Of a stretch of 25,165 bases of DNA, positions 4,301 to 24,378 are shown one piece after another. Within the stretch, counting starts at the first letter, position 1, and the number at the start of each line of letters is the position of its first letter. Origin of the DNA: a virus; IMG/VR virus record IMGVR_UViG_3300036466_000086, positions 1 to 25,165 of that record. One strand, written 5' to 3'. The notes under the pieces were generated by a model, which worked only from the letters and a program-made list of their open reading frames with translations, ran no database searches and had not been told where the DNA came from. The translations under genes and the position numbers were made by a program.

Positions 4301-7300
4301 ATAAACTTTGCTCATCGACACCAAGCATGTTAGCAATCTCTTCGTTTGTATTAAAGATTAATTTACTAGACATAAAAGAAATATATTCATCAGCAGCTAA
4401 AGCTATTGCTGTCGCAACATTTTTATTGATAGATATTTCACCATCAATCTTACTAAAAACTAATCCTCTTCCTGGTCCATTTTGACCTTTAAGCTTTTCA
4501 AGACCTTCGTTGTTAGCATATGCTAATGTGTTTCCAAGTACAGTTGTTGCATCATTTGAATAATTCATAACAGCTACAGATATTGGATCTTCTCCAAGAG
4601 CCAGAGAAGAAAGTCTATTTTTTTTACTTCTAGATGGCTCAACTATATTTAGTGGATTAATATGTTGACCTTTAATTTTACCAATACCTGCATACACAGA
4701 AGTACCATTCTTAGCTATTACCTTACCATTCTCTGTTATAGTTTTTTGACCAATTATAGACTCAATATGTGCGGTACCCTCAAGATCATTTTTTATATCT
4801 TTAATCTGCTCTTTAAATGGAGCAATTTTATTTTCATAAATTGCTTCAATAGAATTATTAAGTTCTTTTATTCTATTAGTAATCTTAGTCTTTCTTTCAA
4901 GAAGTCTAAACTTATCTATATGGAATCCATCTAATAGCTTAAAGATTCTTTCGATAATCATCCTAGCTAATTTAATAGGAGAGTCCATAGCTATTCTAGC
5001 TTTTTCTTTAGTAGTAGATTTTCTAAGTGTATCGTTAGCTTTTTTAATCTTTTGGTTAAGAACAGATATTTGGCTAAAAATATTATTTTGTTCAGCAGAA
5101 AGAAACTTCTTTTCATCTTTCATCTTATTTATATCATCAATAAAAGAATCAATAGTTCTTTGAAAACTTTCAAGATTATGATTTAAAATATCAACTCTAT
5201 TACTAGTAGAAAGAACTTCTTGCTTATCCGTAGATTGAATATCTTTCTTTATAGATACTAACTCTTTACTTAGATTATAAGAATGCTCTTCGTAAGGAAA
5301 TGATTCAGAAAGTGGATATCTATCATCAGTTGCAGAAACATCTTCAACGTCGATGCTAGACTCGTATGGAACAACTTGTTCTGGAGTAGATTCTTCATAC
5401 GATGGCATAGGATATACATCAAATATATTATCTGACGAAGGAGGAGTGATCTCAAACGTAGGAGTTTTTATCTGACTAGCAAGATCAGAAGAAGATTCTT
5501 TTGTATTGTTTTCTTCTTTTCTTTCTTTTTTATTATCTACTTCTTTCTCTTTTTTGATTTCTTTTTTGGTTTCTTTATTCTCTTTAGCTATTGATGCTTT
5601 CGTATCTTTAGCTTCTTTTATAGAATCAGAATACTTTTTTATATCTTTATTTATTGATACAATTTCTTTCTTTAATGCATTAAGCTTATTATCATCTCCT
5701 AAATTAACAACAGAATTGTATAATTTTTTTAAACCAGTTTCTTTTCCAGATTTAAATCTATCAAATGCTGAATCAATAACAGATTGTTCTTCTTTTGTAA
5801 ATAAAGAAGAATCTAATGATGAAGAAGATTTAGACGAATATTCTTTTGTATCATTTTTTTTAGAAGAATTAGTAGAAGTAGTTTTTCTTAAGCCTTCTAG
5901 TTCTTCTCTTTTTTGTCTATATTCAGAAACTATATCTCTATCTCTAGCATTTTCAATATCTTCTATTTTAACACCATTAAATTTTTTAGCAAGCTTATTA
6001 TGTTTAGTAAGAAATCCAGCAAGTCTTTTAATTCTATCTACTTTATCTGATTTTTTAACATCTTCATCAACTGTAGTGTCGTCAATTTTAGAAAGCTTAA
6101 CATCGTACAATTTAGAAAGATTAGATATTGCATCAACAGATCTTCCTATGTAGTCAAGAGTCTGAAGAACACCAGTCCTAGAATCTGAATCCAATAAATT
6201 TTTTGCTATATCTCCAGGATTTATTTGAAAATCACTAGAAAATTCACTATAAGTTACAGGAACCTGTGTATTTTTTCTGTCCACAATTGATTGTAGTGCA
6301 GAAGAATAATTCTCGCTAGCACCAGACTCAACTAATTCTCTGGCTCTAGATTTAACATCTCGTTCAACTTCTTGAGCAGCTTCAGAAAGCTTATTAAATT
6401 TAGATTCTTGACTAGCATGAAAATTGCTTATTTTTGAAACGTTACTAGTGATTGCTTTAGAATCTTGTCTTTCAATTGCATTTCTAAGATTATTAAAATA
6501 TGATTCATATCCTTTAAATTCATCAGATACAACCTCTTTTTCAACAGTATTGATATCCTTTCTAGCTCTAACAAAAGTTTCTTGCTCGTCTTTTACGCTT
6601 TTAATAGTTTCAGAATCTAATCCTAATGCTCTACCAAGACTTTCAATATTCTTCTTAATTGATTCATTAGAAAAGTCTCCAGAGTCTTTCATCTCAGATA
6701 ATAATTGTCTAAAGTTATTTTCTCTAGTATAATAATCAAGATTCTCTTGGTCAGAGCCAAGTGAGTTAATAGATTTTTCATCACCATCATAAATAGTTTT
6801 TTTTGTCATCTTTCTAACTTGATCAAGTAAATCTTTTCTAGTATTTAATATTCTTTCTTTTAATCTCTCGTCAAGAACAGCAGATTCATCAATAGAATTA
6901 AGTGAATCATTTGCATCAAATAAACTTTGTTGAGTTTTGTTTTGCTCGTAAGAACTTATAGAATTAATAGCATTATTTATTTTTTCTTCAACCTGAGTAT
7001 TAAAATCTAAATCAGTTGCAGTTTTTGCGTCTTCAGCAATGTTAACATCACTAGCGACAGACTCATCAACTTTACCAGATCCAATCTGACTATTAAAAGT
7101 AGTAGCAGCTTTTGCACCTTCGGCTAATCCTTTTCCTCCAATAGAAAGTGCATCGGCACCAGCTCTAAATTGTGTACCGCCAGCAAAACCAGCAAGAGTT
7201 GATTGGATAACTTCATCAATATTTTCTTCACTAGAGATAATTTTAGAGAATGAACCTTCATTTTTTTGAGTACCAAGTTGAGTTCCTAAGATTTGTCCCC

Positions 7301-8912
7301 AAGTTTGAGTATATTCTTGTGCAGCTTCACCTAGACCAGCAGCAGTTAGTGCACCAGCTTGCTCAGCAATTCCAAGAAGAATCTTTTTCTTTCCTATAGC
7401 ATCAGCAGAACCGAATGCATTTTTAAGTGCAACTTTTCCACCTTCAATACCAGTTATTTTATCAAAGGCAATTCTGTCAAGTCCAAATAAAGCAAAATTT
7501 AAAGCACCAACAGATAGGGTCTCAGCCATAGTTGGTTCAACTCCTCCATTATTTGCTTTTCTTTCTTCAAGATCATTATTAGTTTGTTCACCAACAACAG
7601 ATAATAAACCAGCATTTTCTGCAACCTTTTGAATACCTCTTTGAACGGAAGTGTTCGCTTTAGCAATTTTAGAAGAAATAGATGCAACTTCATCCGCTTT
7701 TCCAGCAGCTTTTGCAGCAGTTAGTTCAGCTCCAAGCTTACCAAGTATAGAAAATTTACCGAAACCAATAGCCATTTCAAGCATAGTAGCAAGAGACTCA
7801 GCAGCTATTTCTGGCTTAGATAATACTTTTCCTATGGCACCAAAATAGTCTCCTTTTTTCCATTTACCACCAGCCTCATTTAATGTCTTGCTTGCATCTC
7901 TTCTATCATACCCAACTAATTTATCAACATTTTCTTGTTGCTTAGCTTCGTCAAGCAAAGTATTATTTCCTGGAGTAAGAACATCAAGTATGAAGTCTCC
8001 TGTGCTAGCAAGTGCTCTGACACCACCAGCTGCGGCAGCTCTTAGTATTCCAGATTCTCCAGAAGCAGAAGCTTTATCAGCAGCCTTCATTAGCATTTCA
8101 CTATTATATTTATTTTGAGCAAGTCTATTAGAATCTTGGTTAAACCCAAATGCATCTGTATTGTAAACCTCTGTATATCCAGAACCCAACTGAGCAATAT
8201 CTTTTATCTTCTTGCCTTGCTCGTTGTAACCAGATCCATATGTTCTATTTTCTATGTTTGCTCTATTGCCATGCCACTTGTTTTCCCAGTCTTCTGCGCC
8301 AGTAAAACCTTTCTCGTCAAGAATATCATATCCTTGTTCAATGAATTGTCTTCTGTATCTATCAGCAGCACTATTCTTAGCAACACCAGTTTTGTATGTA
8401 TATAGTGGTTTTCCTTGGTAATCATATCCATCAAGAAGTCTAAGGTGATAAACTCTATGCTCAGCATTTGGATCATCCTGTGCAGAATTATATTGATCAA
8501 TAAGCTCTTGTCTATTTTTAGAACTTTGTTCAATACCAACTCCTGGCTCCTCAAAAGTTTTATTATCTAAATTTAATTTTCTGCCATAAAGATTAGCTTG
8601 TAAATCTTTTCCTCCCCATAAATCATTAACAACATTGTATGCTCTCTTTGCATTAATCATTAATGAAGAGTCATCCTCTGCACCAGATTTTTTAGATAAT
8701 CTTTCTGCTTTTCTTTGTGCTATTTCATCTTGAGAAAGTCTTGTATTCTGTCCAGAAATATTTGTTCCAGTAAAAAAACCAGAGTTATCACTTGGTGAGA
8801 TATCTGGATTACCCAAATCAGATGCTACACTAACATTGTCAAAAATAGATGGTTGTGAATATTGGTTATTGTATTCAGAAGTATTTGCATATTCGTCGTA
8901 TATTTCAGCCAT
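1386..8912 (-). CDS. Giant virion-encapsulated single-subunit RNA polymerase (N4 gp50-like)
   Basis: This 2508-residue protein ends in a T7-superfamily RNA polymerase module. Visible motifs are: T/DxxGR as S1805-R-N-G-R1809; motif A with D1938 (FDAVTSG); motif B with R2065, K2069 and Y2077 (RxxxK then Y eight residues on, in FKDPFMTFGYS); motif C with D2313 (GIHDA). The spacings (R1809 to D1938 129, K2069 to Y2077 8, K2069 to D2313 244) are close to those of N4 mini-vRNAP (R424, D559, K670, Y678, D951). The core is roughly residues 1385-2508. The N-terminal half holds a possible GIY-YIG-like domain (about 151-255), an Ala/Gly-rich hydrophobic region (285-600) and long Lys/Glu/Ser-rich coiled coils (650-1380). 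In N4 this enzyme is packaged, ejected with the DNA and transcribes early genes from hairpin promoters. The start has an AAGGA site. Only one cysteine (C2505) is present. Unlike N4 (3500 residues), no long C-terminal domain follows the core. Confidence 0.9.
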   Translation of the reverse strand: MAEIYDEYANTSEYNNQYSQPSIFDNVSVASDLGNPDISPSDNSGFFTGTNISGQNTRLSQDEIAQRKAERLSKKSGAEDDSSLMINAKRAYNVVNDLWGGKDLQANLYGRKLNLDNKTFEEPGVGIEQSSKNRQELIDQYNSAQDDPNAEHRVYHLRLLDGYDYQGKPLYTYKTGVAKNSAADRYRRQFIEQGYDILDEKGFTGAEDWENKWHGNRANIENRTYGSGYNEQGKKIKDIAQLGSGYTEVYNTDAFGFNQDSNRLAQNKYNSEMLMKAADKASASGESGILRAAAAGGVRALASTGDFILDVLTPGNNTLLDEAKQQENVDKLVGYDRRDASKTLNEAGGKWKKGDYFGAIGKVLSKPEIAAESLATMLEMAIGFGKFSILGKLGAELTAAKAAGKADEVASISSKIAKANTSVQRGIQKVAENAGLLSVVGEQTNNDLEERKANNGGVEPTMAETLSVGALNFALFGLDRIAFDKITGIEGGKVALKNAFGSADAIGKKKILLGIAEQAGALTAAGLGEAAQEYTQTWGQILGTQLGTQKNEGSFSKIISSEENIDEVIQSTLAGFAGGTQFRAGADALSIGGKGLAEGAKAATTFNSQIGSGKVDESVASDVNIAEDAKTATDLDFNTQVEEKINNAINSISSYEQNKTQQSLFDANDSLNSIDESAVLDERLKERILNTRKDLLDQVRKMTKKTIYDGDEKSINSLGSDQENLDYYTRENNFRQLLSEMKDSGDFSNESIKKNIESLGRALGLDSETIKSVKDEQETFVRARKDINTVEKEVVSDEFKGYESYFNNLRNAIERQDSKAITSNVSKISNFHASQESKFNKLSEAAQEVERDVKSRARELVESGASENYSSALQSIVDRKNTQVPVTYSEFSSDFQINPGDIAKNLLDSDSRTGVLQTLDYIGRSVDAISNLSKLYDVKLSKIDDTTVDEDVKKSDKVDRIKRLAGFLTKHNKLAKKFNGVKIEDIENARDRDIVSEYRQKREELEGLRKTTSTNSSKKNDTKEYSSKSSSSLDSSLFTKEEQSVIDSAFDRFKSGKETGLKKLYNSVVNLGDDNKLNALKKEIVSINKDIKKYSDSIKEAKDTKASIAKENKETKKEIKKEKEVDNKKERKEENNTKESSSDLASQIKTPTFEITPPSSDNIFDVYPMPSYEESTPEQVVPYESSIDVEDVSATDDRYPLSESFPYEEHSYNLSKELVSIKKDIQSTDKQEVLSTSNRVDILNHNLESFQRTIDSFIDDINKMKDEKKFLSAEQNNIFSQISVLNQKIKKANDTLRKSTTKEKARIAMDSPIKLARMIIERIFKLLDGFHIDKFRLLERKTKITNRIKELNNSIEAIYENKIAPFKEQIKDIKNDLEGTAHIESIIGQKTITENGKVIAKNGTSVYAGIGKIKGQHINPLNIVEPSRSKKNRLSSLALGEDPISVAVMNYSNDATTVLGNTLAYANNEGLEKLKGQNGPGRGLVFSKIDGEISINKNVATAIALAADEYISFMSSKLIFNTNEEIANMLGVDEQSLSPDIIAFWRNKGKFKKVIASELGQNILSNLSLKTRRDIDIETSVKIKMDLGQMALYYMESKGYIEPLKDTIVSSSDYKKYGGKDVYESAFAYNDPNDINLELNGQNTTMIQLSKNLKSDKKLPSDKSSINKISALYNTVKEDIGFEGNRKGYIFASSSSRKDKTFTIRKNDVTEVPSASVDTLNVLSKEEYELNTDALNDLLSLGKDKVLELLGYTNEDYLNDLSFNDRESAIARNRELTTSLDDLINLGSNIDSGQENKFFFDWFFSRNGRFMMDSVTVNPQADKLHRFLVTPKAFASNIKIDSEKDMNIFKTAIAQAFGFAVDKKSTKKIYEFADVVLNSNISDLKKLFNNGKLKLNGIELEAEHLSHSIVGIQAVTAYQNAINNESKSFKTNLSVEFDAVTSGFILKLMQLPLSDVKKTKEWLAKGGIFIGGLDGISENDFERISSMNDEIDSGRVVDGYRTLAGGMIEPDDVPDSIDPLGLWSTLRKNKFLPDILEKVEVESDTISSENSSASREEYVVSKDGRALFKDPFMTFGYSAGMKSIKRHLGYKMIEAIPTKLLDGSAESNELIENILSKTSINLRDFKQMLRDKSIEDISINIGNGEQITLGQYLRNIIEDGYGNQVESILSTEFADMIEANETINNSFKMMFRAWKIKYDEAIQLAGGFGTITAEQELEIIKSLRDIFPLIKSPLGDGTRDGVAIVNTGIDTKYDYKYGAAQTALSNGSSPKVQSMIRQFEEAINSGAVIPIHYIDGSLMTNLLGKGGILGIHDAKMSSLNSALDNVVDYNTQVFNISKEYSLTNELLVSMRRVAKTMTEKQRSEIESIVTGFGKNKKSYSFDDIGKKLSDLDSVSKVAREELFNNDIKVMHMTALPGSEFINKQYKEKEKDRFLENETIEDYNVSKLGYGVVSPKSESARGINNANDVNDVSSLSATNSSGTEYVLSEDDTKRINDTMNKNINECEGL
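8148..8462 (-). other. GIY-YIG / T5orf172-like domain inside the polymerase N-terminus
   Basis: This covers residues about 151-255 of the virion polymerase. The order of elements is like a GIY-YIG fold: a hydrophobic strand (RVYHLRLL), a second strand with Y-x-K-T-G (LYTYKTGVAK), a helix with clustered arginines (R185, R187, R188) and a later acidic helix ending in E210 and H214 (AEDWENKWHG). The following GSGYTEVYNTDAFG segment is a pattern I associate with this domain in other large phage proteins. This is a recognition from memory of the pattern, not a computed match, and the canonical tyrosines are not all present. If real, it would be ejected into the host with the polymerase. Confidence 0.45.
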
Positions 8913-8986: not shown

Positions 8987-10666
8987 TTAGTTAGATAAAT
9001 AAGTTCTAGCATTATAATATAAATCTTTAGCAGCATTTATATCTCTATTAAATGAATCTCCAGGCTGACCAGTACCACCTATAGAAGTAGCAAGTGCTCT
9101 TTTCTCTGCAGGAGTTATATTTTTACCCTGCTCCTTTAGAAACTCTCCAATAGGTATAGCCATATAATCTCTAATAGATGAAAGACCAGAAGCACCCTCT
9201 ATTGCTCCAATGATTTTCTTAGAATTTTCTGGATTAGATCTAAGATATTCCCCCAGCGGAACGGCAATATTATCTCTAATGTCTCTAACATTTCTCTGAT
9301 TTGCAAATATATATTTATTGATAGCAGATGTAACTGGTTTTTCTATATTAAACTCAGGAGAAACAGTTGAGTTGGCTAAACTATTTAATAGCTTAGAATT
9401 TCCACTAATTAAGCCATCTTTCCATGTTTCAGATTCTATCTTCTTGTTTAATTCATTTACCTTCGTAAATCTTTGTTTTGCACTAAGGCTCTCATCATTA
9501 AGGATATCTTGCTTCTGAGATGATAATTTGTCTATCTCTTTAAAGCTAGATGATCCTTGGTTAGATGAATCAGCAACGATGCTGACAGCATTGTCAGCAT
9601 TAGAATTCGAAGCACTAGCATTTTCTGCTTCTTTCTTTGGAAGATTAGCTGTATATCTAGCGAGTGCTGACTCAAATCTATTTTCAGCAGTCTGAGGAGC
9701 TATTCCTCTTATATCATTAAGAATTGCTTGAGCAGATGTAGCACCTTGGCTACCAACTTGTATCCTATTTAATCCTTCAGTTGGCTGAGGAGTAAACTTA
9801 GGAGATCCTCCTCCAAAACCAAGAGTACTAGAACTTGTAGAGTATCCACTTCTGACTAACCCACCTATATCAGAAGGAGAATATCCTTGTCTTGCAAGAG
9901 TAGCTCCGTATTTTCTCATTTCATCTGCAACATTTTGTCCAGCAGTAGTACTTGGAAGTTCTAAGTCTTCTATAACTTTATTAACTGATTTACCAGTTTC
10001 TTCAATATACTTAGCAGGATTTTGTATAGAATTCTTACCGTACGATTGAGAGCCAGAGGTTGGTGATTTTAATCTTGAGTCAACTAATTGTTTTTGCAAT
10101 TCTTCTTCCTGAGTAGGAATGAAAGACGATCCAAACGAATTTAATAATTGTTGTTTTTTAAGCTGACTAAGCCCAGGAACAGAATTTAATTGCTTAGAGT
10201 AATCAGATAATGATGCAGCTCTAGACTCAGCAGTATTAAGATTGTTAAAACCTTGATTAAAAGCTTCTTCAAACTGCTTGTCAGTTCCTCCAGCTTTTGT
10301 AAATTTATTATAATTTTCAAGTAAAGATTTTCCTTGATCTATTCCTATAACATCTTGTTCTGTTATTTTTTTAGGAGATATTTTATTTGCAGCTCGTTCT
10401 GCTTCAAGATCAGCCAATTGAAGACCTTTAACCTTTTTATTGAGATTAAATTCTTCTTGTTGTCTAGCATTTTGTATATCAAATCTTCTAGCATTTTCTG
10501 CATCCTGAGAAGCAAGCCTAGCATCAAGAAGTTCTTGTCTTTGCTTATCGTCTTCTCTCTTTTGAAGATTTCCAATAATGTCAGACAGCCCAGACGAAGG
10601 AGATTGACCAAATCTTGGGATTGAAATTCTTCCGCCTGAAAAACTACCTATATTTTTTATAGCCAT
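8987..10666 (-). CDS. Probable internal/ejected virion protein, 559 residues
   Basis: This is a Gln/Asn/Ser/Ala-rich, helical, cysteine-free protein between a small ejection-type protein and the giant polymerase. That is the position taken by ejected proteins in N4-like phages. Residues about 30-90 are strongly helical and charged (coiled-coil-like); residues 200-320 are Gly/Ser/Thr-rich and probably flexible. Near the C-terminus an element of about 35 residues is repeated: IRDNIAVPLGEYL from I463 and IRDYMAIPIGEFL from I498. No enzyme motif and no membrane segment is visible. The start is supported by AAGGAAACAAT before ATG. I do not recognise a family. The assignment as an internal virion protein rests on position and composition. 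Confidence 0.7.
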   Translation of the reverse strand: MAIKNIGSFSGGRISIPRFGQSPSSGLSDIIGNLQKREDDKQRQELLDARLASQDAENARRFDIQNARQQEEFNLNKKVKGLQLADLEAERAANKISPKKITEQDVIGIDQGKSLLENYNKFTKAGGTDKQFEEAFNQGFNNLNTAESRAASLSDYSKQLNSVPGLSQLKKQQLLNSFGSSFIPTQEEELQKQLVDSRLKSPTSGSQSYGKNSIQNPAKYIEETGKSVNKVIEDLELPSTTAGQNVADEMRKYGATLARQGYSPSDIGGLVRSGYSTSSSTLGFGGGSPKFTPQPTEGLNRIQVGSQGATSAQAILNDIRGIAPQTAENRFESALARYTANLPKKEAENASASNSNADNAVSIVADSSNQGSSSFKEIDKLSSQKQDILNDESLSAKQRFTKVNELNKKIESETWKDGLISGNSKLLNSLANSTVSPEFNIEKPVTSAINKYIFANQRNVRDIRDNIAVPLGEYLRSNPENSKKIIGAIEGASGLSSIRDYMAIPIGEFLKEQGKNITPAEKRALATSIGGTGQPGDSFNRDINAAKDLYYNARTYLSN

Positions 10667-10684: not shown

Positions 10685-11092
10685 TTATATTTTAGAAGCA
10701 ACGTTAGCTGATCCAAAATGTTTATTAACTGCTTCTGTTCTGGCAACAGCATTATTATATTTTGTCTTCTCTGCTTCATAGTTTCTATTAGCATTTTCAA
10801 TACTTGCGTTAAGTGCTTTCTTTTGAAGATTATAGTTTTGGAAACCTTGGAACGCTTCAAGTGCACCAAGACCAACTTGTGCAGCACCCAACCCATCTCC
10901 AAACGAAAATCCAGAATCAGAAACTGGAAGATTGCCCAACCCATCTTGTCCGACACCAATGCTTCCAGTAGAATTACTTCCGCTTTTAAAAACTGGGCTA
11001 GAGATAACATCTCCACCATTACCACTTACAGGTATTGGTTTAAAATATGAATTTGTAGCATTACTTCTAGAGTAAGTTGTATAGTCAGCCAT
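10685..11092 (-). CDS. Small internal virion protein, N4 gp52-like in position and layout
   Basis: This is a 135-residue protein without cysteine. The first 65 residues are Gly/Ser/Asn-rich and probably disordered. Residues about 66-90 form an Ala/Gly/Leu helix (GAAQVGLGALEAFQGF), followed by a long polar helix (KKALNASIENANRNYEAEK) to about residue 120. A glycine-rich helix followed by an Asn/Gln/Lys coiled coil is the usual layout of small ejection proteins next to the giant polymerase in N4-like phages and resembles T7 gp14-type core proteins. It may line or traverse the envelope during DNA entry. An AAGGAT site precedes the ATG. Exact family membership cannot be shown here. Confidence 0.65.
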   Translation of the reverse strand: MADYTTYSRSNATNSYFKPIPVSGNGGDVISSPVFKSGSNSTGSIGVGQDGLGNLPVSDSGFSFGDGLGAAQVGLGALEAFQGFQNYNLQKKALNASIENANRNYEAEKTKYNNAVARTEAVNKHFGSANVASKI

Positions 11093-11180: not shown

Positions 11181-13487
11181 TTAACCAGTTTGAGTAACCT
11201 TTCTAGTTTCATATGCATAGTCAACATCATAAAGCTGGTCAAAATTAAAAGCAGCCTCGCCAAGCATGCTTGAAATATATGCATCTGGCATATTTAGTGT
11301 CCCAGAAAAGTAAGAAGACTGGTCATCAAACATCATTATTGTAGCAGAGGCATCATTGTAATTCATTGAATCAAGAAGCTCTTTTAATTCTGAATGTTGT
11401 TCTTGTATTGAATCAAGACGTGTCTCGCCCTCGGCAATCATTCTATCTGTTTCCATCTGCATAGCTTGGTTCATTGTTGAAAGTATTACGTTTGCTGCCT
11501 GAAGATAGCCAACACTAAATTGTTGTCCAAATAAAGTAAAGTCTCCATACATAGCTGCAATAATAGCAGCGGCAATTATAACTGCAGCTCCTAGCTTTGG
11601 ACCAAGAACTTTAATTACTATATGCACAACTAGTGCAACAGCAAGAATCTTAAATAGTGCAACCCATAAAGATGTGGTGCTACCTAAAGTCCATATTATT
11701 ATTACGAATGCTACCATTTTAAGTATAGCACCAAAGATAGACGTTTCATACCATTTAACAAAAACTTCTTCTGTTGCGTAACCAAGAAGACAAAGACCAG
11801 CTTCATATATTGCAACAAAATTTTTATAGCTAAGACTATTAAGAACACCAAGCGGAACAATTATTCTGCTATGTTCAGCGTCTCCATTTAGATCTGTATC
11901 TATGGTTTGACCAGATATTTTATATTTCTGCCTATAGTCAGCTATAATTATCTGCTTATATTCTGATTGACTACCCTGATATCTCATTACCATTCTATAT
12001 CTTGCTTCCTGACTTGTCCCATCCCCAGAAGAAACACTAACATAATATGTATCAATGGTTTTGGAATATGTTCCAACTGGAAGAATAGAGCCAGAGATTG
12101 TGCTTCTAGAAATTGTAAATGTATAAACCATGTTAAGCTGATTCATTGAAATACTTATATTTCCAGATCCTGGAGCATAATAATTAAATGATTTATATAA
12201 TGCTTCAGCTATAGCAGAACCTCCAGCATGTGGATGAATGCCAGTCATTAGGTATGCATTATCCATATCAGGATTAGCCAGGCTGTCTACAAGATCATTT
12301 GGCTTAAGATTTAATTTTTTAAGCATTCTTTTTAGCTTATAATTTTCTAAATCTTGAACTACATTATTTTCTTTTAGTGCTATTATAGCTGTCATTGGTA
12401 CAGTTTCTGAGAAATAAATATTAGTCGGTGCACCAGATAATAACTCAATATGTGTAAAATAAAATTCTGAATCATAATCGCTTCTAGTGTATTCTATATA
12501 CAGATTTTCAAAATCATTGGCTGCAGTAGATATTGAAAATGTTGTCAATGGCAAGTAAATCTCTATAATATTTGAATCACTAACACTTTCAGCAAAAACT
12601 CTATAGTTATTAACTCCTGATATATTATAAACTGTATGGTCATAGTAAGTAACCTCATATTGAGAATAATAAACAACTTCATATGGATACGAATCAGTTT
12701 CAACAGAATCTTCTATCACTTTGATAGTATAGTTACCAACATCATATAAAGAATCGCTAATTGACCATTCCTTCACAGAACTAGTATTAAATACATAGCT
12801 ATCGTATAGTAATCCAGATTCATATATTTCTATGATTGTCTCATTTATGGAAACTCCAGCAATACCAGATAATTCAAGAATTCCAGTTCCTTCATCAAAA
12901 TTAATATATGTTCCATCGTAAGAATATGAGTCCTGAAGAGACTCAACTATATCTTCCTCTGGCTCTTTTATAAAATCACAAGTTAATGTATTTCCAGATC
13001 TAGAGACACTTGGATTTATCCATGTATCGCCAGCATTAATTAATGTTTGCGTGTGATTAGTATAATCATAATTATTTTGAATATAGTTAAACATAATTTG
13101 ACTATCAGATAAATAGTCACCAATAAATCTTCTTATTCCATTTGCCTCTGGAACAATAGTCTGAAGATAAGAAAGAGTAGCTGCTTCATTTATAACTCTA
13201 GTACTTGCATTTGTACTTGGTGCGTATCCAAGACTGGTTAAGAATCTAGGTGAGCACTTTCTTCTGTAGTCCTTTTGAAAACTCTTGTATATTTTAAAGT
13301 AGCTATTCGCATCTCCTTTTGACTGACGAATAGCATTACGTCTAGCACTTTCATCAGCTTCTCCTGGAGTAAGAAGATTCTGTATAGATATATCACTAAC
13401 TGTCTCATAATGATCAACAATACCAAGTAGAAGGTTTAGTCCTCCAGTCATAACAGTCATTAGATTTTTACCAAAACTTCCACCCAT
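11181..13487 (-). CDS. Large virion protein with a C-terminal membrane-segment cluster
   Basis: This is a 768-residue protein whose ATG shares one base with the stop codon of the acyltransferase gene, so the two are translationally coupled. Residues 1-140 are helical and begin with a hydrophobic Gly-rich stretch. Residues about 190-370 are rich in Tyr/Ser/Val/Ile and look like beta-sandwich (Ig-like) domains. Residues 450-530 are again beta-rich. Residues about 584-601, 605-628 and 632-646 form three hydrophobic segments (FGAILKMVAFVIIIW and following). A charged helix (675-710) and a polar tail follow. A virion protein with membrane segments, placed just before the ejection proteins, could form part of the channel through the host inner membrane. 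No catalytic motif is visible. It is the nearest candidate acceptor for the upstream acyl cassette, by position only. Confidence 0.7.
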   Translation of the reverse strand: MGGSFGKNLMTVMTGGLNLLLGIVDHYETVSDISIQNLLTPGEADESARRNAIRQSKGDANSYFKIYKSFQKDYRRKCSPRFLTSLGYAPSTNASTRVINEAATLSYLQTIVPEANGIRRFIGDYLSDSQIMFNYIQNNYDYTNHTQTLINAGDTWINPSVSRSGNTLTCDFIKEPEEDIVESLQDSYSYDGTYINFDEGTGILELSGIAGVSINETIIEIYESGLLYDSYVFNTSSVKEWSISDSLYDVGNYTIKVIEDSVETDSYPYEVVYYSQYEVTYYDHTVYNISGVNNYRVFAESVSDSNIIEIYLPLTTFSISTAANDFENLYIEYTRSDYDSEFYFTHIELLSGAPTNIYFSETVPMTAIIALKENNVVQDLENYKLKRMLKKLNLKPNDLVDSLANPDMDNAYLMTGIHPHAGGSAIAEALYKSFNYYAPGSGNISISMNQLNMVYTFTISRSTISGSILPVGTYSKTIDTYYVSVSSGDGTSQEARYRMVMRYQGSQSEYKQIIIADYRQKYKISGQTIDTDLNGDAEHSRIIVPLGVLNSLSYKNFVAIYEAGLCLLGYATEEVFVKWYETSIFGAILKMVAFVIIIWTLGSTTSLWVALFKILAVALVVHIVIKVLGPKLGAAVIIAAAIIAAMYGDFTLFGQQFSVGYLQAANVILSTMNQAMQMETDRMIAEGETRLDSIQEQHSELKELLDSMNYNDASATIMMFDDQSSYFSGTLNMPDAYISSMLGEAAFNFDQLYDVDYAYETRKVTQTG

Positions 13488-13978
13488 TATAAGCCTTTTA
13501 TTTTATTGTAAAATTTATTTATAGATTCTTTTGTTACTTCAGATATCAATACTGAATCATCAGAAACTTTTGTTCCTAGTTTAATAAACTTTTCTATGTT
13601 TTTGTTTTTTATATATAAATCAATATTTTTAAATAAATTATTCATAATATAATTATTAAAAAGAATATTACCATCAGATACCCTGAATGGCTTAAGCACA
13701 TTAATATAAGATATCGAGCCAAATTGTTTTTCTCCAATTTGAGTTAACTCAGTACATGCAGCTCCAATGATAAGATTATTAATCATCAGAATATAACATG
13801 TTCCTCTAGATATTGATCCTCTAATCTTTATATTTACGCTATTGCTAGATCTATCAGTAGATGACAATACTTCAGATGTAGAAAAAATCTCTCCAAGTAT
13901 CATACCAGAAACAATATCAGCATGAGAAGAATCAGCTTTATATATTGAAAAATTATTTAGTGAGTCTAACTCCACCAT
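13487..13978 (-). CDS. Probable GNAT-type N-acyltransferase
   Basis: This is a 163-residue protein that starts 26 bases inside the ketosynthase gene and has the strongest ribosome binding site in the window (TTAGGAGG). Strand-like segments CYILMINNLIIGAAC (61-75) and FGSISYINVL (86-95), followed by KPFRVSDGNILFNNYI (96-111), resemble beta2-beta3, beta4 and the acyl-CoA-binding turn plus helix of GNAT enzymes, although the Q/RxxGxG/A loop is degenerate. T7 gp13, needed to assemble the T7 internal core, is also described as GNAT-like, so such a protein beside ejection genes has precedent. With an acyl carrier protein and ketosynthase upstream, the donor here could be an acyl-ACP instead of acetyl-CoA (inference). 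It could also be a structural relic without activity. Confidence 0.45.
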   Translation of the reverse strand: MVELDSLNNFSIYKADSSHADIVSGMILGEIFSTSEVLSSTDRSSNSVNIKIRGSISRGTCYILMINNLIIGAACTELTQIGEKQFGSISYINVLKPFRVSDGNILFNNYIMNNLFKNIDLYIKNKNIEKFIKLGTKVSDDSVLISEVTKESINKFYNKIKGL

Positions 13979-14792
13979 AAAAGCCTCCTAATCCGCTTGC
14001 TAAAACCAATCCAGTTTTATTGTCATATCTTTTATCTTCTATTAACATACATAATTCAATTAGACCACTGGCACCTTGAGTATGCCCATGAATTTCCTTA
14101 TAAGACACCGTATCTCTAATCCCAAATAATTCAATAGATGAAGCTTCTACTTCATTATTTCTTTCTGTTCCTGTTCCATGTGTTTTTACGTATGATACAT
14201 CATCAGAGTATAAATCATTAAGGACTTTGATATAACCATCCGCACTAACAGACATTGGACTTGAATCTGCATTCCACTTCCAAGAAGTAAGATCTATCTT
14301 GTAATTAGAATACTTATTTGATAAATGTATAATAGCAGCACCATCTGTGCAAACCATATCTATTCCAAGCTGCTTAAATAATAGCTCTTGTGTAGGTTCT
14401 CGAAGTTCATCAGAATAAACTACTACATCTGTATATCCTGAATCAAGAAGCATCTTAGCTTCATGTAAAGAATATATACTACTTGCACAAGTGTTTGAAT
14501 TACTACTTGCATAATTTACATTATTTATCATCTTTGATATCGTAAAAACATTCAATCCTATCTGGCTCTTTATTGGAGCATTTCCAGGAAGAGACAAGTT
14601 TTTAATATTTCTAACATCACTATGATGCATTGCTGGACCAGCAGCATACAAAAAAGCAACATTTTCTCCAACATCTAATCTGTCAAAAAATGGATTTAGT
14701 ATATTAATATATTGACCAGTCATAAACTTTGATCTGTCAATAGACTCAATAAGTGGATCTCCAACAACATATTCAAAATCTTTTACATACAT
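13953..14792 (-). CDS. Shortened beta-ketoacyl-ACP synthase (ketosynthase)
   Basis: This 279-residue protein has the thiolase-fold condensing-enzyme motifs in order. The nucleophile C102 lies in NTCASS followed by a helix and SGYTDVVVYS. H205 lies in KTHGTGTE with the downstream ELFG. K232 and H237 lie in YKEIHGHTQGASG. The C-terminal glycine loop is SGLGGFYGG. These match the FabB/FabF Cys-His-His triad plus the conserved Lys; K232 to H237 is five residues, as K328 to H333 in FabB. It is about 130 residues shorter than typical enzymes (about 410), mostly before the Cys and between Cys and the first His. Such enzymes condense or decarboxylate malonyl-ACP to extend acyl-ACP. It overlaps the ACP gene by 10 bases and the acyltransferase gene by 26. 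Activity is plausible because no catalytic residue is missing; the product is unknown. Confidence 0.85.
   Translation of the reverse strand: MYVKDFEYVVGDPLIESIDRSKFMTGQYINILNPFFDRLDVGENVAFLYAAGPAMHHSDVRNIKNLSLPGNAPIKSQIGLNVFTISKMINNVNYASSNSNTCASSIYSLHEAKMLLDSGYTDVVVYSDELREPTQELLFKQLGIDMVCTDGAAIIHLSNKYSNYKIDLTSWKWNADSSPMSVSADGYIKVLNDLYSDDVSYVKTHGTGTERNNEVEASSIELFGIRDTVSYKEIHGHTQGASGLIELCMLIEDKRYDNKTGLVLASGLGGFYGGVRLTK
13984..13989 (-). promoter_or_regulatory. Strong ribosome binding site of the acyltransferase gene
   Basis: AGGAGG lies six bases or less upstream of the ATG at 13978 and is embedded in the last codons of the ketosynthase gene. Most genes here have the weaker AAGGA form, so this one may be tuned for higher translation or for coupling. 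Confidence 0.7.
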
Positions 14793-15031
14793 GATACTAT
14801 TCTTTCATAAATTGTATTTGGTGTTTGGTTTGAATAATCAAACTTTTCCTTGTTCAAATCTGATGTGTCAAAACAATGATACTTATCATCAAGTTCAACA
14901 TACATCATTATTCCGCTAAAGCTATCAATACCAGATGATAATATCTTATCATCAAAAGATATCGGATTACCATGGTTTTCGATAATATAATCATTAATAA
15001 AATCTAATATTTCATCTTCTGAATAATTCAT
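14783..15031 (-). CDS. Phage acyl carrier protein
   Basis: This 82-residue acidic helical protein has the carrier-protein signature: DKILSSGIDSFSG, with S37 in G-I-D-S as the predicted 4'-phosphopantetheine attachment site, followed by a helix (IMMYVELDDKY) like the recognition helix of ACPs. Its length matches bacterial ACPs (about 75-85 residues). It would need a host phosphopantetheinyl transferase, as none is seen in the window. It is followed with overlap by a ketosynthase and then a probable acyltransferase, so it most likely carries the acyl chain for that cassette. Host ACP normally serves this role, so a private ACP suggests an unusual chain or a dedicated acceptor. AAAGGAT precedes the ATG. 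Confidence 0.8.
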   Translation of the reverse strand: MNYSEDEILDFINDYIIENHGNPISFDDKILSSGIDSFSGIMMYVELDDKYHCFDTSDLNKEKFDYSNQTPNTIYERIVSCM

Positions 15032-15047: not shown

Positions 15048-15575
15048 CTAGTCTAGTGTAGAATAATAATCTGTAATAACATTCTCAAATGCTTGGTTAA
15101 ACCCAAATGTTCCAGATGGATATTCTGTAGTTGAACCAGTTTGAGATATTTGTGCAGGAATAAATGTAGTATCTGTATCTTGAAAAGTAATACCCCATGC
15201 ATTCATTTGTGCTTCTAGAATCTTTTGATGCTTATTATCATCAAAACCAGCTCTCTGTCTATTGTATAATTTTTCCTGTGAAGACATCACATCTCTTTGT
15301 TTTGCCGAAGTAAGAAGTTTGTCTTGCTCATTTTTAAGTTGTGCATCTTTAATCTCTAAGTCTTTATTGGCTAAATCAATTCCAAGCTCAAATCTAACAG
15401 CCTCTTGTATCATACTTGGAATAACTCCAGTATAAACTGCACCAGCCTCTTGTTGTGTAATTTCATTTTTAGCTATAGCGTCATTAATATGTAATCGTAA
15501 AACTCTCATAAATGCATCAAAAGATCCATTTCCTTCAAGGCTTACTTCTGTAACGTCAGATAGTTGTACTGCCAT
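15048..15575 (-). CDS. Structural protein, connector- or tail-associated, 175 residues
   Basis: This is a mainly helical protein. Residues 15-60 (GSFDAFMRVLRLHI and the following ITQQEAGAVYTGVI) and 60-120 (a Gln/Lys/Asp-rich helix ending in YNRQRAGFDDNKHQKILEAQMNAWG) match a layout I have seen in small structural proteins encoded after the capsid gene in podoviruses: an initial FD helix, a membrane- or interface-like helix, a long Gln-rich helix, then a conserved Trp. The C-terminal 45 residues are Thr/Ser/Gly-rich. No enzyme motif is present. The start follows CTAAGGAAT. I cannot name the family, but position and composition favour a virion component. Confidence 0.6.
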   Translation of the reverse strand: MAVQLSDVTEVSLEGNGSFDAFMRVLRLHINDAIAKNEITQQEAGAVYTGVIPSMIQEAVRFELGIDLANKDLEIKDAQLKNEQDKLLTSAKQRDVMSSQEKLYNRQRAGFDDNKHQKILEAQMNAWGITFQDTDTTFIPAQISQTGSTTEYPSGTFGFNQAFENVITDYYSTLD

Positions 15576-16376: not shown

Positions 16377-17798
16377 TTATGCTAATTTAGCAGCACAAAT
16401 AATTTGTCTAATTCTCTCTGGTCTATAAATCATCATACCGAAGTACCATGAGATTGCAACCGCACCTTTTTTACCGAATACATCATTGTACGCATCTGCT
16501 TTTGGCATAATTGTATTAACTCTTGCAACGTCACCTTCAAATCCAATTGTAGCAAATGAATCTGTACCAACATATAACACTGGGAAAACGTCATAATGAC
16601 CATTTGTTTGGTGTAAGTCAGCAGCACCTGTATCATCTACAGTATCTGTAGTATTAGCACCAGCACCTTTGTATTTTTGCATATCTTCAACTTCAATGAA
16701 TCTAGTAGCAGAAATCTTTCCGATTTCACCTTCCATAATCATTCCAGCAGCAGCATAAGACTCAACTGGTTTCCAAACATTAACACTGTTATGTTGCATA
16801 TCTTCTAAAGTTGGGTATAACTCTTGACCAACATAAGCAGTATATCCAGCACCAACTACAGTTGTGCCTACTTTAGTAGAACCATCAATAATTTTTGTTT
16901 GCTTTGGAGATCTTGCAGCTTTTAAACCTTGTTCCATTGCTCTAATGTCAGTAAATGTTAAAACATCACCAGCACCAATTTCAGCAATAGTAGATGCATC
17001 ACCAGCTTGGAATCTATTAACTTCAGAAGCAGTTAACAATCCAGATTGAATTTGCATTTCTCTAATTGTACCTTGAGCTTCACCAACTTCTCTAGCGATT
17101 CTAGCGATTAAACCAGTCTCTGTATCCATATCAATCATTCTTTGAGTAAATGGAACATGGAAGCCAAACTCTTCAACTTGTGCTTCAAGTGTTAATCTTG
17201 TCATACCAACAGCATTCACGATTCCACCTTCTTCTCTTAATGCTGGGAATGAACCCTTAACAATTGAGAAATCAGTATCACCACCATAAATATTACCATT
17301 ACCAGATAAAATTGTACCAGCAACAACTGGATAAGCAGTATATGGAGCACCTGCAGCACCTGCAGTAGCAGCAGCAACAGCTAAAGCTTCAGTAGTATAG
17401 TTAGAACCTGTATTATCAAATTCTGCACCAGTACCATCAACACCAATCCATGTTCTAATTTGGTCATAAGCTAATTCAGAAGTAGCATACCCAGATGTAG
17501 AACCAACCATAGCACCAGCAGTATCATAAGCAAAATACTTATCTTTTACAAGAGTAGCACCATTTGCATCAATACCTTGATCATTTTTGTTCAATTCATG
17601 AATAATTGGTAACTCATGGTATTTAACAATCTTATCACCATAATTTTTAGGCTGAGTTAATTTGTCACCTAATTGAGAGAATACTCTCATTCTTCTAGCT
17701 TCTTTTACAGAAACCTTCGACCAAAATTTGTCGTTAAACTGAACACCAATATCAGACGTAGCTGGATCGTATCCACCTTGATTAAATTTCATACTCAT
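16377..17798 (-). CDS. Major capsid protein, N4-gp56 family
   Basis: This 473-residue protein has the HK97-like layout of N4-gp56-type capsids. The N-terminal FWSKVSVKEARRM helix and the YGDKIVKYHELP strand come first. A long helical segment follows (VEEFGFHVPFTQRMIDMDTE and the next helix through IREMQIQSGLL). Then come the LTFTDIRAMEQGLKAAR and YTAYVGQELYPTLED elements typical of the P-domain. The ending FGKKGAVAISWYFGMMIYRPERI is the family's C-terminal signature. N4 gp56 is about 400 residues; the extra length here lies mainly at residues 125-200, an Ala/Gly/Thr-rich insertion, and around 375-400. Translation starts at M-S-M-K after AAGGAATG. It follows the scaffold gene directly, as expected. 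It is expected to be the most abundant virion protein. Confidence 0.92.
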   Translation of the reverse strand: MSMKFNQGGYDPATSDIGVQFNDKFWSKVSVKEARRMRVFSQLGDKLTQPKNYGDKIVKYHELPIIHELNKNDQGIDANGATLVKDKYFAYDTAGAMVGSTSGYATSELAYDQIRTWIGVDGTGAEFDNTGSNYTTEALAVAAATAGAAGAPYTAYPVVAGTILSGNGNIYGGDTDFSIVKGSFPALREEGGIVNAVGMTRLTLEAQVEEFGFHVPFTQRMIDMDTETGLIARIAREVGEAQGTIREMQIQSGLLTASEVNRFQAGDASTIAEIGAGDVLTFTDIRAMEQGLKAARSPKQTKIIDGSTKVGTTVVGAGYTAYVGQELYPTLEDMQHNSVNVWKPVESYAAAGMIMEGEIGKISATRFIEVEDMQKYKGAGANTTDTVDDTGAADLHQTNGHYDVFPVLYVGTDSFATIGFEGDVARVNTIMPKADAYNDVFGKKGAVAISWYFGMMIYRPERIRQIICAAKLA

Positions 17799-20451: not shown

Positions 20452-22695
20452 TTATTGTTTATTTTTAGAGCTAGATAGTGCGTCTTCTAGCAATCTTATC
20501 TTAGCCATCATTTCTTCTCTTGTCATTTCTAACTCAGCAGAGTGTTCTCTCTCATTTGCTTTTAGCCTAGCATCAATAGCTTTATCTTCAAGCTCTTTTG
20601 CTCTAGTAGCACCAGTTTGCTCATCGACAAACTTCTTGTCAATCATGTCAGACTCAGACTCAAGTTTTCTAGTTTGAGCTTCTCGCAATAATCTCTGGCT
20701 CTCTTTATTTTTAACATCAGTTTCATTTTCAATAACTCTTGAAATTCTTTCATGAATCTTAGAGTCACCCTCTTCGATATCTTTTTTAAGTTTTTCGTTT
20801 ACAAGAGTAGCATTTTCAAGTTCAAGTTGTTTAATTTGCTCAGCAACTGGATCTGGTTGAGGTTCGTAAGTTCTAAAATATTCTGCTAGGTCTGGTTGTT
20901 TTTTCAAGTCCATAATCTTAGCCATAACCATGTTGGCTAATTTAGGATCCATGCTTGCAGCATTAGTTTGAAGAATCATTCCTAAGTCTTGTGCAGTTTC
21001 ATTATCTCTTTCTGGAGTAGAAACTTCAATTATTAAGTCAAATTCACCAGCTAAGTCATCTCTTCTGATTGTAACAAACTTATTTGTTATTCTAATTATT
21101 TCTTCATCATCAAGATAAGACTGATTCATTGCTATAGTCATTCTAGCCATATCTTTAAACAGCAAGTCTGATATTCTTCTAAGAATAGATAGCTCTCTTT
21201 TTGACACAGCATCCATTGCACTTCTAACACCAGTTGCCACAGAACCAAATGTTTGACCAGATATACCAGTGCTAAAAGCTTTTGTTCCACTTAAAGATTC
21301 AGCTTCAGCATTTTGCATACTAATCATATTAAATACAGTTCCATCAATAGGGGTAGTTCCATTTTTGTATATAGAAGTCTTAGGATTTAGTCCAGTTCTA
21401 AAATAAACAGTATTCCCTTTATTGTAGTTATCTCTTTGAACAGGAGAAGGAAATAATCCCTCATCAATAAACTCTTGACCAATAGCATTATTTGCTGTAA
21501 TATCATGAGCAGCTCTCATCATCTTACCAATAGATTCTTGATTTTCTATAAGAAGCTCGGCGTCAGGCTCACCAAAACATTCTTTCTTAATTGGCATATA
21601 AGTTGCAATACTAAAAGGAAGTCTTTTATGAGGAAATGGATTCTTTTCCATTCTTATAATTGTTTTACCAACCCATGTAGCTATAATAGGCTCAACTTCT
21701 CCATCACCATTGATGTCCCAATATCCCCAATATTCAAATGCCCTAACTTTTTTTCTAGGACCATCTTTATATTTAAAGTTTTGAGCAGATTCAGAATCGT
21801 ATTCAAGATCAACAGCTTCCAAATCTTCATCTTTTATTTTGCTTAAATTTTTGTATATACCAGTTTCGAAAGTTTCCTTTACGCCAGTCTCCTCGTCAAC
21901 TTCTGTCCATCTTCTATATTCTTGTTTCTTTAGTTCAGACATACTAGTTGAATATTCATGTATAACGAATTGTGCATTTTCCATTATTCCTTCACAAGTA
22001 GGATCAATGATAATGTTTGCGTTGTTACAAACTTCATATGTAGGCTGATTCTTAATAAGAACTTCTTTTTCTACATATACTTTTTCTGTTCCTGTTTGCA
22101 TTGGTTGACCAGTCTCTATCATAGCCTGCATTTGTTCCATTGACATACTTCCATCTTGAACAGCTTGTTGCATTAACGCTAAACTTTCCTCTGGACTTGC
22201 ATAGACAGGCTGCTCTTCTTCTACAAGCTTTATGCCTTCTTCTGATTCCCATCCAGTTTTAACAACAACGGTACCCTCGTCAACAATTGTTCTAACTATG
22301 TCACCAACAAGCTTAACCTTGTTTATTTTAGATGACCATTGATAGTTAAGTAGTATTTGATTTTGCATAGCAGCATTAGCATCTTCTTCTGTTCTTGGAT
22401 TTATTTTATACATATAAGGAGTGCTTAAAAAAGGCTCTTCTAAAGATGGATATTTCCATTCATTCTGTTTACGTATAAGTTTTGGTCTAACTGTACTTTT
22501 ACCAGGCTTAGATGGAGTAATTTTTTTACCACCATCACGATATTCTTCCCATCTTTTTAAATTAGATCTGAGAGTTTCTTGATAAGTTGAGGCGTTAATC
22601 CTATCAGTATTTAAGTCGTTGTAAGATGGTTCTTTATTCCAATCAGTAAGAGTTGGTTCGCCATTAGTAGCAAGTTCTAATTCATCTTCATTCAT
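20452..22695 (-). CDS. Portal protein, N4-like
   Basis: This 747-residue protein is close in length to N4 gp59 (about 760). The diagnostic part is residues 60-150: STVRPKLIRKQNEWKYPSLE, then EPFLSTPYMYKINPRT, and DIVRTIVDEGTVVVKTGWE. These are typical of large podoviral portals that begin with a conserved Arg-Pro-Lys loop. The middle part carries NIIIDPTCEG, a stretch with a calcium-like DINGDGEVEP loop, and an ending block with TNKFVTIRRDDLAGEFDLII (the wing/stem side). Residues about 630-747 are a long charged helix (barrel-like or coiled coil). The portal forms the dodecameric DNA gate of the head and anchors the tail. AAAGGAAACAG precedes the ATG. Confidence 0.88.
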   Translation of the reverse strand: MNEDELELATNGEPTLTDWNKEPSYNDLNTDRINASTYQETLRSNLKRWEEYRDGGKKITPSKPGKSTVRPKLIRKQNEWKYPSLEEPFLSTPYMYKINPRTEEDANAAMQNQILLNYQWSSKINKVKLVGDIVRTIVDEGTVVVKTGWESEEGIKLVEEEQPVYASPEESLALMQQAVQDGSMSMEQMQAMIETGQPMQTGTEKVYVEKEVLIKNQPTYEVCNNANIIIDPTCEGIMENAQFVIHEYSTSMSELKKQEYRRWTEVDEETGVKETFETGIYKNLSKIKDEDLEAVDLEYDSESAQNFKYKDGPRKKVRAFEYWGYWDINGDGEVEPIIATWVGKTIIRMEKNPFPHKRLPFSIATYMPIKKECFGEPDAELLIENQESIGKMMRAAHDITANNAIGQEFIDEGLFPSPVQRDNYNKGNTVYFRTGLNPKTSIYKNGTTPIDGTVFNMISMQNAEAESLSGTKAFSTGISGQTFGSVATGVRSAMDAVSKRELSILRRISDLLFKDMARMTIAMNQSYLDDEEIIRITNKFVTIRRDDLAGEFDLIIEVSTPERDNETAQDLGMILQTNAASMDPKLANMVMAKIMDLKKQPDLAEYFRTYEPQPDPVAEQIKQLELENATLVNEKLKKDIEEGDSKIHERISRVIENETDVKNKESQRLLREAQTRKLESESDMIDKKFVDEQTGATRAKELEDKAIDARLKANEREHSAELEMTREEMMAKIRLLEDALSSSKNKQ

Positions 22696-23351: not shown

Positions 23352-23795
23352 TTATGCTTTAATAAGTTCAAAGTGAGGAAGGTCGTCAAAAGATTGATCT
23401 GAAAAATCTTTGTCAGAATCCCAATCTCCACCCCATCTTAATTTATGAGTAATCTCACCAGATGCCAATAACATTTCAGATACAGCAAACATATATCCAG
23501 CAAGCATATAAAATCTAGCTCTAGCCTTTAATCCATCTGAATAATCAATTGGATAAGGTGCTATATCAACAGCCTTACTTAATGGCTCTTCTTTAGTAAC
23601 TTGATGCTTTGATCGCTTATTTACTCCATCAAGCTTGCTTTTACCAGCAAGAAAATATTCCATTTGCTTTTCATCTGGTCTTGCTCCTTCAGTAACACTG
23701 TTATCCATAATCGATACAACAATTGTACATATTTTTATTAAATCAGGATGGCAAGTATTTAATCTAGCCTTAGATGTTTTTCCATATTTAGCCAT
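23352..23795 (-). CDS. M15-family endolysin (L-alanyl-D-glutamate endopeptidase type)
   Basis: I place the start at 23795 (MAKYGKTS) because AAAGGA lies just upstream and overlaps the holin gene's stop; an upstream in-frame ATG would overlap the holin gene by 68 bases. The 147-residue product shows the M15 peptidase pattern: EGARPDEKQ, SKHQ with H64, AVDIAPY with D77, LRWGGDWD, and DLPHFEL with H141. H64, D77 and H141 are the predicted zinc ligands and D138 the catalytic acid, as in the phage T5 endolysin. It would cut the peptide stem of Gram-negative peptidoglycan. The H64-D77 interval (13) is longer than the seven residues in T5-type enzymes. It has no signal peptide, so it needs the holin encoded upstream. 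Confidence 0.88.
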   Translation of the reverse strand: MAKYGKTSKARLNTCHPDLIKICTIVVSIMDNSVTEGARPDEKQMEYFLAGKSKLDGVNKRSKHQVTKEEPLSKAVDIAPYPIDYSDGLKARARFYMLAGYMFAVSEMLLASGEITHKLRWGGDWDSDKDFSDQSFDDLPHFELIKA

Positions 23796-23796
23796 A

Positions 23797-24378
23797 CTAT
23801 TTTCCTTTCGATAATGCTGTATGTATTGCTTCATTTTTATCACTAGAGCTTTGTGAAGTTCCAACGAAATAATTTATAAAAGATGCTATAACTGTACCCA
23901 ATACAAATCCAAGAATAGTATCAGCAAACCTAACATTAGCCTCTGGAATAGTAGCAAATGTTATAAATCCAATATAGAACATTGCAAACAAAGTCCATAC
24001 AGATGCAAATATATAAACAAAGTTTTTAGCTAACTTACTAGAAGTGGCAGAAGTCTGTGCAACATTATTCATATTTCTTGCGTTAGCAGTGTTTTTGTTA
24101 TTTGAATCAATTAGTGCTTCGCCATGTCTATTGTCTTCTTTCTTATTTGCAAGAGCTAGCTTTTCAAGTTCAATTCTAGTTGCAGGATCATTCTCTATAT
24201 CTTTAAGCTTATCAACCTGGCTCTTTGTTAATCCTTTATCTGGACTAAGTTTAAACCCAGCTTTGTCTTCAAGATATTTGACACCAGCATCTAGACCACC
24301 TTCAACTGCATTGGCAGCAACGTCTAACCCTTTATCCATTAGCATACTTGCTATTGAACCTATTAGTAATGATAACAT
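23797..24378 (-). CDS. Holin (three membrane segments)
   Basis: I prefer the ATG at 24378 (MLSLLIGS), which has AAGGAA upstream; an earlier in-frame ATG at 24426 would lie inside the preceding gene. The 193-residue protein has a short hydrophobic N-terminus (1-14), a long polar and helical middle and two clear membrane segments (about 119-143 and 151-173). It ends with INYFVGTSQSSSDKN, the C-terminal signature of the 3-TM holin family found in podoviruses and gene transfer agents. It would open the inner membrane for the endopeptidase encoded directly downstream; that ribosome binding site overlaps this stop codon. Confidence 0.8.
   Translation of the reverse strand: MLSLLIGSIASMLMDKGLDVAANAVEGGLDAGVKYLEDKAGFKLSPDKGLTKSQVDKLKDIENDPATRIELEKLALANKKEDNRHGEALIDSNNKNTANARNMNNVAQTSATSSKLAKNFVYIFASVWTLFAMFYIGFITFATIPEANVRFADTILGFVLGTVIASFINYFVGTSQSSSDKNEAIHTALSKGK

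Follow-up and report, generated by a model that had tools for sequence, protein, structure and literature searches.

The 25,165-bp virus record IMGVR_UViG_3300036466_000086, referred to here as the window, carries a cassette of three small genes in the structural operon of an N4-like phage (Schitoviridae type). All three lie on the minus strand and encode an acyl carrier protein (ACP) of 82 amino acids (aa; 14783..15031), a compact FabF-type ketosynthase (KS) of 279 aa (13953..14792) and a putative GNAT-like acyltransferase of 163 aa (13487..13978), the last of which we call the third gene. Directly behind them on the same strand is a gene for a 768-aa protein starting MGG that resembles the N4 tail plug gp53 (11181..13487; phrog_2220, 3.6e-23), hereafter the partner. 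Along the minus strand, the ACP and KS genes overlap by 10 bases, the KS gene and the third gene by 26, and the third gene and the partner gene by a single base. An earlier note made from this DNA alone had described this coupling of three overlapping genes to a virion gene, and the ATG-initiated open reading frames (ORFs) and overlaps are exactly as it claimed. The cassette is flanked by a gp54-like (tail-tube) gene in front and the gp53-like (tail-plug) gene behind, and the N4-like assignment rests on the presence of a virion RNA polymerase, an N4-type portal, the capsid protein and gp53 in Pfam and PHROG searches.

The ACP carries its predicted attachment serine, S37, within a GIDS motif. 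The pair D36–S37 is invariant in 10 phage ACPs of the N4 type, and the Asp-Ser pair is likewise invariant in the ACPs of a second group of contigs, which we call P22-type because, where annotation is available, a P22 gp10-like gene precedes the cassette, as in MW202545. A profile of 44 P22-type phage ACPs matches dozens of acyl carrier proteins in the PDB, from 5.6e-6, and an extended phage ACP profile matches the window ACP at 8.7e-12, a value to which the window copy contributes as a member of the profile. When searched alone, the window ACP has no match in Pfam, where it does not reach the PP-binding cut-off, and its sole match in NCBIfam is DltC at 0.0048. Homologues are present in the isolated phages PT11-V19 and R22Y, which infect marine Alteromonas, and the PT11-V19 protein scores 20.7 bits against the Pfam PP-binding cut-off of 20.8. 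One N4-like contig encodes the ACP and KS as a fusion in a single ORF of 363 aa (L249:6316-7407).

The window KS matches the Pfam family Ketoacyl-synt_C (PF02801) at 1.3e-8, where its 35.3 bits exceed the cut-off of 20.8, and lies below the NCBIfam equivalog cut-offs for FabF/FabB-type enzymes. Its residues C102, H205, K232 and H237 align with C164, H304, K336 and H341 of Escherichia coli FabF, and this Cys-His-Lys-His catalytic set is invariant in all 44 phage KSs compared, the window copy included. A profile of 37 phage KSs matches FabF structures at about 1e-29. The phage enzymes are short, with about 370 aa in P22-type phages compared with 413 aa in E. coli FabF, and the window copy falls short of a full-length KS chain (about 410 aa with a complete N-terminal half). 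These results agree with the earlier note in its identification of an ACP with a GIDS attachment serine and a condensing enzyme with a complete catalytic set. That note had also set the conservation of S37, C102, H205 and H237 as a test in advance; these residues are kept across homologues, and on this test its reading is not refuted.

A KS tree, in which the cellular rows are few (three) and some branches are long, separates all phage KSs from the three cellular KSs by a branch with 100/100 support. The N4-type KSs form one clade, also at 100/100, together with a KS from Sulfurospirillum. When a narrower KS DNA pattern was run against genomes from 84,980 species of bacteria and archaea, the only hit was this contig, from a Sulfurospirillum metagenome-assembled genome that carries phage-like genes. 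Its KS (L127:1819-2721) is flanked by two large phage-like ORFs, with a lysozyme-like ORF nearby, is nearest to the KS of the contig with the ACP–KS fusion, and has neither an ACP nor a GNAT gene visible beside it. On the sequences compared, the KS clade is virus-specific. KS matches in unannotated phage assemblies, among them those of Listeria and Enterococcus, resemble host contamination and were set aside.

The cassette recurs widely. Scanning IMG/VR with DNA patterns of KS motifs yielded at least 120 loci for the pattern THGTGTxxN[ND] and 21 more for a second pattern, which together place the virus-specific KS clade in at least about 140 contigs. Among the matches listed, to which the following counts also refer, nearly all loci from the first pattern encode KSs of about 370 aa with the motif KTHGTGTxxNNxAE. 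The ACP gene adjoins the KS gene in 116 of the 121 P22-type loci with room upstream, a GNAT-family gene adjoins it in 99 of the 118 with room downstream, and the full row of ACP, KS and third gene is seen in 89 of the 107 with room on both sides. Because about 90 contigs with complete flanks repeat the trio, the arrangement is not due to chance. A third pattern scan identified seven N4-like contigs (L244–L250, of which L248 and L250 are near copies), and all seven contain the trio, in the order third gene–ACP–KS in L244. The protein behind the cassette has 484 aa in L245 and 359 aa in L249. Synteny in other N4-like phages, which the earlier note had proposed as a check, is thus found, and the P22-type group extends it.

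The third gene and the partner gene can also stay together without their usual neighbours. In the genome of locus L008, the ACP and KS genes are at another place, yet the GNAT gene still lies immediately ahead of the partner gene; these two look like the tightest unit, with ACP and KS as its probable supplier. In PT11-V19 (L002:14995-15745) and R22Y (L004:5739-6504), an ACP gene and a third gene occupy the same place as in the window, and the R22Y ACP gene likewise precedes the third gene and gp53. Both PT11-V19 genes are annotated as hypothetical. Ten cassette-free N4-like phages, and likewise PJN101 and pYD6-A, have no annotated ACP, KS or third gene between gp54 and gp53; one of the ten, SBP1, has a homing endonuclease there. 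Another 80 N4-like contigs from IMG/VR, picked by their capsid protein and including many short fragments, gave no match to the ACP, KS or GNAT family.

Structural evidence on the third gene comes from the P22-type group, where it forms a family of about 150 aa. An AlphaFold model of this family has a mean predicted local distance difference test score (pLDDT) of 96.2 and a predicted template modelling score of 0.89, and shows the GNAT order of elements. The PDB matches listed for the model are GNAT-type enzymes (E 4.8e-5, TM 0.5–0.6), and they include the acyltransferase domain of a nonribosomal peptide synthetase (NcdE). The family has no meaningful match in Pfam, PHROG or NCBIfam. The CoA-binding motif [QR]xxGx[GA] is found in none of 52 P22-type and none of 9 N4-type third genes, and therefore a donor other than CoA appears to be favoured.

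The third genes of the N4 type are too diverged from those of the P22 type to be linked by sequence or profile comparison, and the top PDB match of their joint profile is a GNAT at only 0.033. The window copy has no match in Pfam, PHROG or NCBIfam, and no homologue by tblastn or in an IMG/VR scan whose peptide patterns miss conserved motifs; the same kind of scan, with the same limit, was empty for the PT11-V19 and R22Y third genes. The model of the syntenic gene in other phages shows the GNAT-like order that the earlier note had described for the third protein, and position suggests that the window gene, too, may encode a GNAT.

In both phage groups, which are unrelated, the proteins encoded behind the cassette begin with a hydrophobic or amphipathic stretch. 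In 76 non-redundant P22-type loci, position 2 of the partner is Ser in 41, Gly in 18, Ala in 11, Pro in 4, Thr in 1 and Arg in 1, and is thus a small residue in 75 of 76, which is weak evidence given that 24 of 33 next-door proteins have one too. The P22-type N-terminus has the periodicity of an amphipathic helix, with a mean hydrophobic moment of 1.68 at 100 degrees and lower values at either side, compared with 0.50 (maximum 0.56) for shuffled sequences. Among proteins at the gp53 position, an N-terminal 19-residue stretch with a grand average of hydropathy of at least 1.15 is present in 8 of 9 from phages with the cassette and in 0 of 12 from phages without it (one-sided Fisher test, about 4e-5, calculated by hand with a threshold set after the fact and phages that are not independent). 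A conserved anchor, where recognised, lies at position 105 in two proteins with the cassette and at positions 58–61 in three without it, corresponding to an extension of about 45 residues. In the window, comparison with cassette-free gp53 delimits a hydrophobic or amphipathic segment encoded by partner codons 1–26 (13410..13487, minus strand), which we propose as the acyl acceptor. The partner in L244 has the same N-terminal region as that of the window after the hydrophobic segment. Beyond this N-terminal style, no likeness between P22-type partners and gp53 was seen, a statement made without profile comparison.

Lysines are not a constant feature of this segment. No alignment column within residues 1–140 of the P22-type partners contains lysine in more than 47% of proteins, and the first 40 residues are free of lysine in 38 of 76. 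No lysine is conserved there; should this segment contain the acceptor, the N-terminal amine alone is available in every protein. Strict N-myristoylation of Gly2 was dropped as a candidate, given that Ser is commoner than Gly, Ala occurs and Met-Gly starts are found in cassette-free gp53.

We therefore consider a specific sequence of events. A host phosphopantetheinyl transferase would turn the phage ACP into holo-ACP, which would be loaded with a chain by host fatty-acid synthesis. The phage KS, to judge from its intact active site, would condense or select the chain on this ACP, and the GNAT-fold third protein would move it from the phage acyl-ACP to the protein encoded right behind, as the gene linkage suggests. 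The acceptor would be the gp53-like tail plug in the window and an entry protein of about 300–2,500 aa in the P22-like group. The modified group would most likely be the N-terminal amine of a Gly, Ser or Ala residue bared by Met removal at the head of the amphipathic helix, and chain and helix together could hold the tail tip or entry protein in the outer membrane of the host while DNA is delivered. In N4, gp53 is located at the tail tip and faces the host (PMC12633501).

Anatomy, protein families, conservation and linkage are observed, and the chemistry is deduced from them. On this footing, we lean modestly towards the prediction that the cassette acylates the adjacent tail or entry protein. 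We put forward more tentatively, at slightly less than even confidence, that it constitutes a complete acyl-ACP-dependent system for N-terminal lipidation, a functional counterpart of eukaryotic N-myristoylation that would promote membrane insertion of the tail plug or entry protein. The central proposal of the earlier note, that the phage acylates a virion protein by using its own acyl-ACP, is retained in view of the active-looking ACP and KS, the wide synteny, the GNAT fold of the syntenic gene and the linkage to a partner with a membrane-type N-terminus. Two of its details are corrected, namely the kind of acceptor protein and the HlyC-type transfer that it cited. The note had suggested that acylation possibly helps ejection proteins to enter the host membrane. 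In N4 virions, gp54 makes up the tail tube and gp53 the tail plug, and the ejected proteins are gp52, gp51 and gp50 (PMC12633501); the window partner is the gp53 homologue, and by synteny the ejection proteins are the products of the gp52-, gp51- and gp50-like genes downstream.

Several observations weigh against acylation of the adjacent protein by this cassette. The AlphaFold model of the window third gene, calculated from a single sequence, has a pLDDT of 35.5 and leaves the GNAT identity of this copy putative. R22Y and PT11-V19 have no KS at the cassette place. About 15 loci have ACP and KS genes with no adjoining GNAT gene, and one was seen elsewhere only in the record of locus L008. Some P22-type partners start with Met-Pro, which is a poor N-terminal acceptor, and Met-Gly starts are likewise found in cassette-free gp53.

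Other gene contexts were also encountered in the scans. In loci L007, L036, L037, L093, L094, L096, L103, L119, L133, L134, L145, L146 and L148, the ACP and KS genes are followed, in place of the GNAT gene, by an ORF of ~98–103 aa with the motif RLSDEE or RLSDED, in a setting that looks like a replication-type module; five of these records were searched and contain no GNAT gene. KSs with the same motif but no adjoining ACP gene occur in yet other contexts (L026:6824-7963, L138 and L140).

The published view of related genes is metabolic. The ACP of R22Y (gp30) is presented, in the relevant passages of its report, as an auxiliary metabolic gene that serves the fatty-acid metabolism of the host (PMC11705849), passages that do not discuss the third gene or the partner, and acpP, fabF and fabG genes in prophages have been read in the same way (PMC8224337). 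A role in boosting or retuning host fatty-acid or membrane synthesis draws further support from the fact that acpP-fabF is also a gene order in hosts, and loci in the replication-type module may still be metabolic. For the cassette itself we regard this role as improbable, because it lies in a tail operon coupled to a virion gene, its GNAT gene stays with the partner when ACP and KS move, and its KS clade is virus-specific. Moreover, neither a phosphopantetheinyl transferase of host type nor a FabG-type reductase (short-chain dehydrogenase/reductase) was found in 13 phage records, of which several are fragments; well-known genomes searched as controls gave hits. The phage would therefore use host enzymes to activate its ACP and to process the ketoacyl chain, unless the 3-oxoacyl group is transferred directly, and a complete fatty-acid auxiliary pathway is unlikely. 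As the earlier note had argued, general lipid supply is a poor fit, and both these absences and the tight link to one virion or entry protein agree better with acylation.

If acyl transfer does occur, its target could instead be an internal lysine of the neighbouring or another virion protein, in the manner of HlyC and CdiC, which take acyl-ACP as donor and modify a membrane-acting protein encoded beside them (PMC8510554). The window partner does have lysines near its N-terminus. No third gene among the 52 P22-type and 9 N4-type sequences matches the HlyC family in Pfam, and the lysine counts given above, which cover the first 140 residues of P22-type partners only, reveal no conserved acceptor; we therefore find the HlyC-type transfer mentioned by the earlier note unlikely. 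A mainly structural role, in which the cassette proteins chaperone or scaffold the assembly of the tail plug or entry protein, ACP and KS being bound as structural components and no acyl group passing to a protein, has a precedent in the small genes directly ahead of the ejection genes in P22 (gp14, DUF2824) and T7 (gp13, named a probable scaffold), and the phage GNAT family has a distant fold match to a DUF2824 protein. The complete KS catalytic set and the attachment serine of the ACP persist across diverged phages, which scaffolding would not require, and we give this idea little credence. The product could also be a small acylated molecule (a signal, toxin or lysis aid) made by the GNAT as an N-acyl amide synthase or LuxI-like enzyme. 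LuxI enzymes are acyl-ACP-dependent GNAT folds, and the fold match to NcdE points in the same direction. Nothing in this explanation leads one to expect that the cassette is coupled to a virion gene, or that the product of that gene has a linked amphipathic N-terminus, and we judge it very improbable.

The other virion genes assigned in the window are also on the minus strand. The gp54-like gene ahead of the cassette (15048..15575) matches phrog_2050, a virion structural protein, at 1.8e-21. Behind the partner lie a gp52-like gene (10685..11092; phrog_2646, 3.7e-6), placed by a gene order like that of phi50-12, and a gp51-like gene (8987..10666), assigned by its position between the gp52-like and virion RNA polymerase genes. 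The polymerase (1386..8912; Pfam vRNAP_dom_2, 2.1e-6; 28.5 bits, cut-off 27) has 2508 aa, clearly below the ~3,500 residues of its N4 counterpart. The major capsid protein (16377..17798) matches phrog_1357 at 2e-79, and the portal protein (20452..22695) matches phrog_1216 at 2e-184 and Pfam SU10_portal at 2e-121. A candidate lysis pair is formed by 23352-23864 and 23797-24426, in which a putative M15-type peptidase (0.0076, under the cut-off) overlaps a weak Colicin V production match.

If the proposed lipidation is correct, it would offer a direct chemical handle on how short-tailed phages place a hydrophobic channel in the outer membrane, and would constitute, as far as we have found, the first dedicated phage protein-acylation system, with a parallel in animal viruses that have myristoylated capsid proteins. 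Phage ACP genes that are currently classed as auxiliary metabolic genes would be reinterpreted. R22Y and PT11-V19 are isolated lytic phages that carry the ACP and third genes, and are open to direct tests. In the libraries and papers searched, we found no earlier description of the system, its GNAT family or its KS clade, although the folds themselves are known. A review of ejection proteins (PMC8954989) nowhere contains the word ‘acyl’, and a literature search for acylated phage virion proteins, with most subscription papers and all bioRxiv preprints outside its reach, returned nothing relevant.

The closest functional parallels are the toxin-activating acyltransferases of RTX toxins (HlyC, CyaC and ApxC) and CdiC, in which a small acyltransferase gene lies beside that of a membrane-acting protein, an RTX toxin or CdiA, that is lipidated with acyl-ACP as the donor (PMC8510554); in the phages, this donor is suggested by the neighbouring ACP gene only. 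These enzymes differ from the phage cassette in that they depend on the ACP of the host, come without a KS and modify lysine, and no sequence relation to the phage third genes was found. The R22Y gp30 ACP shares the place ahead of the third gene and gp53 and differs in having been published, in the passages concerned, as a gene of host lipid metabolism (PMC11705849). The type II fatty-acid synthase pair acpP-fabF likewise has ACP followed by KS with the same catalytic set, whereas the phage cassette belongs to a separate virus clade, has a compact KS, lacks FabG and phosphopantetheinyl transferase and is coupled to a virion gene. P22 gp14 (L242:8911-9366) and T7 gp13 (PF11090; L243:1308-1724) resemble the third gene as small protein genes directly ahead of ejection genes, and differ in having no ACP or KS and no detected sequence relation to it. 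Given the DUF2824 fold match, entry proteins may be assisted by GNAT-like proteins more often than is known. Eukaryotic N-myristoyltransferase has a GNAT fold, uses an acyl-CoA donor and acts strictly on glycine. It shares with the phage system the GNAT fold and the proposed outcome, fatty acylation of an N-terminus, whereas the phage partners have Ser, Gly or Ala at position 2 and the presumed donor is ACP.

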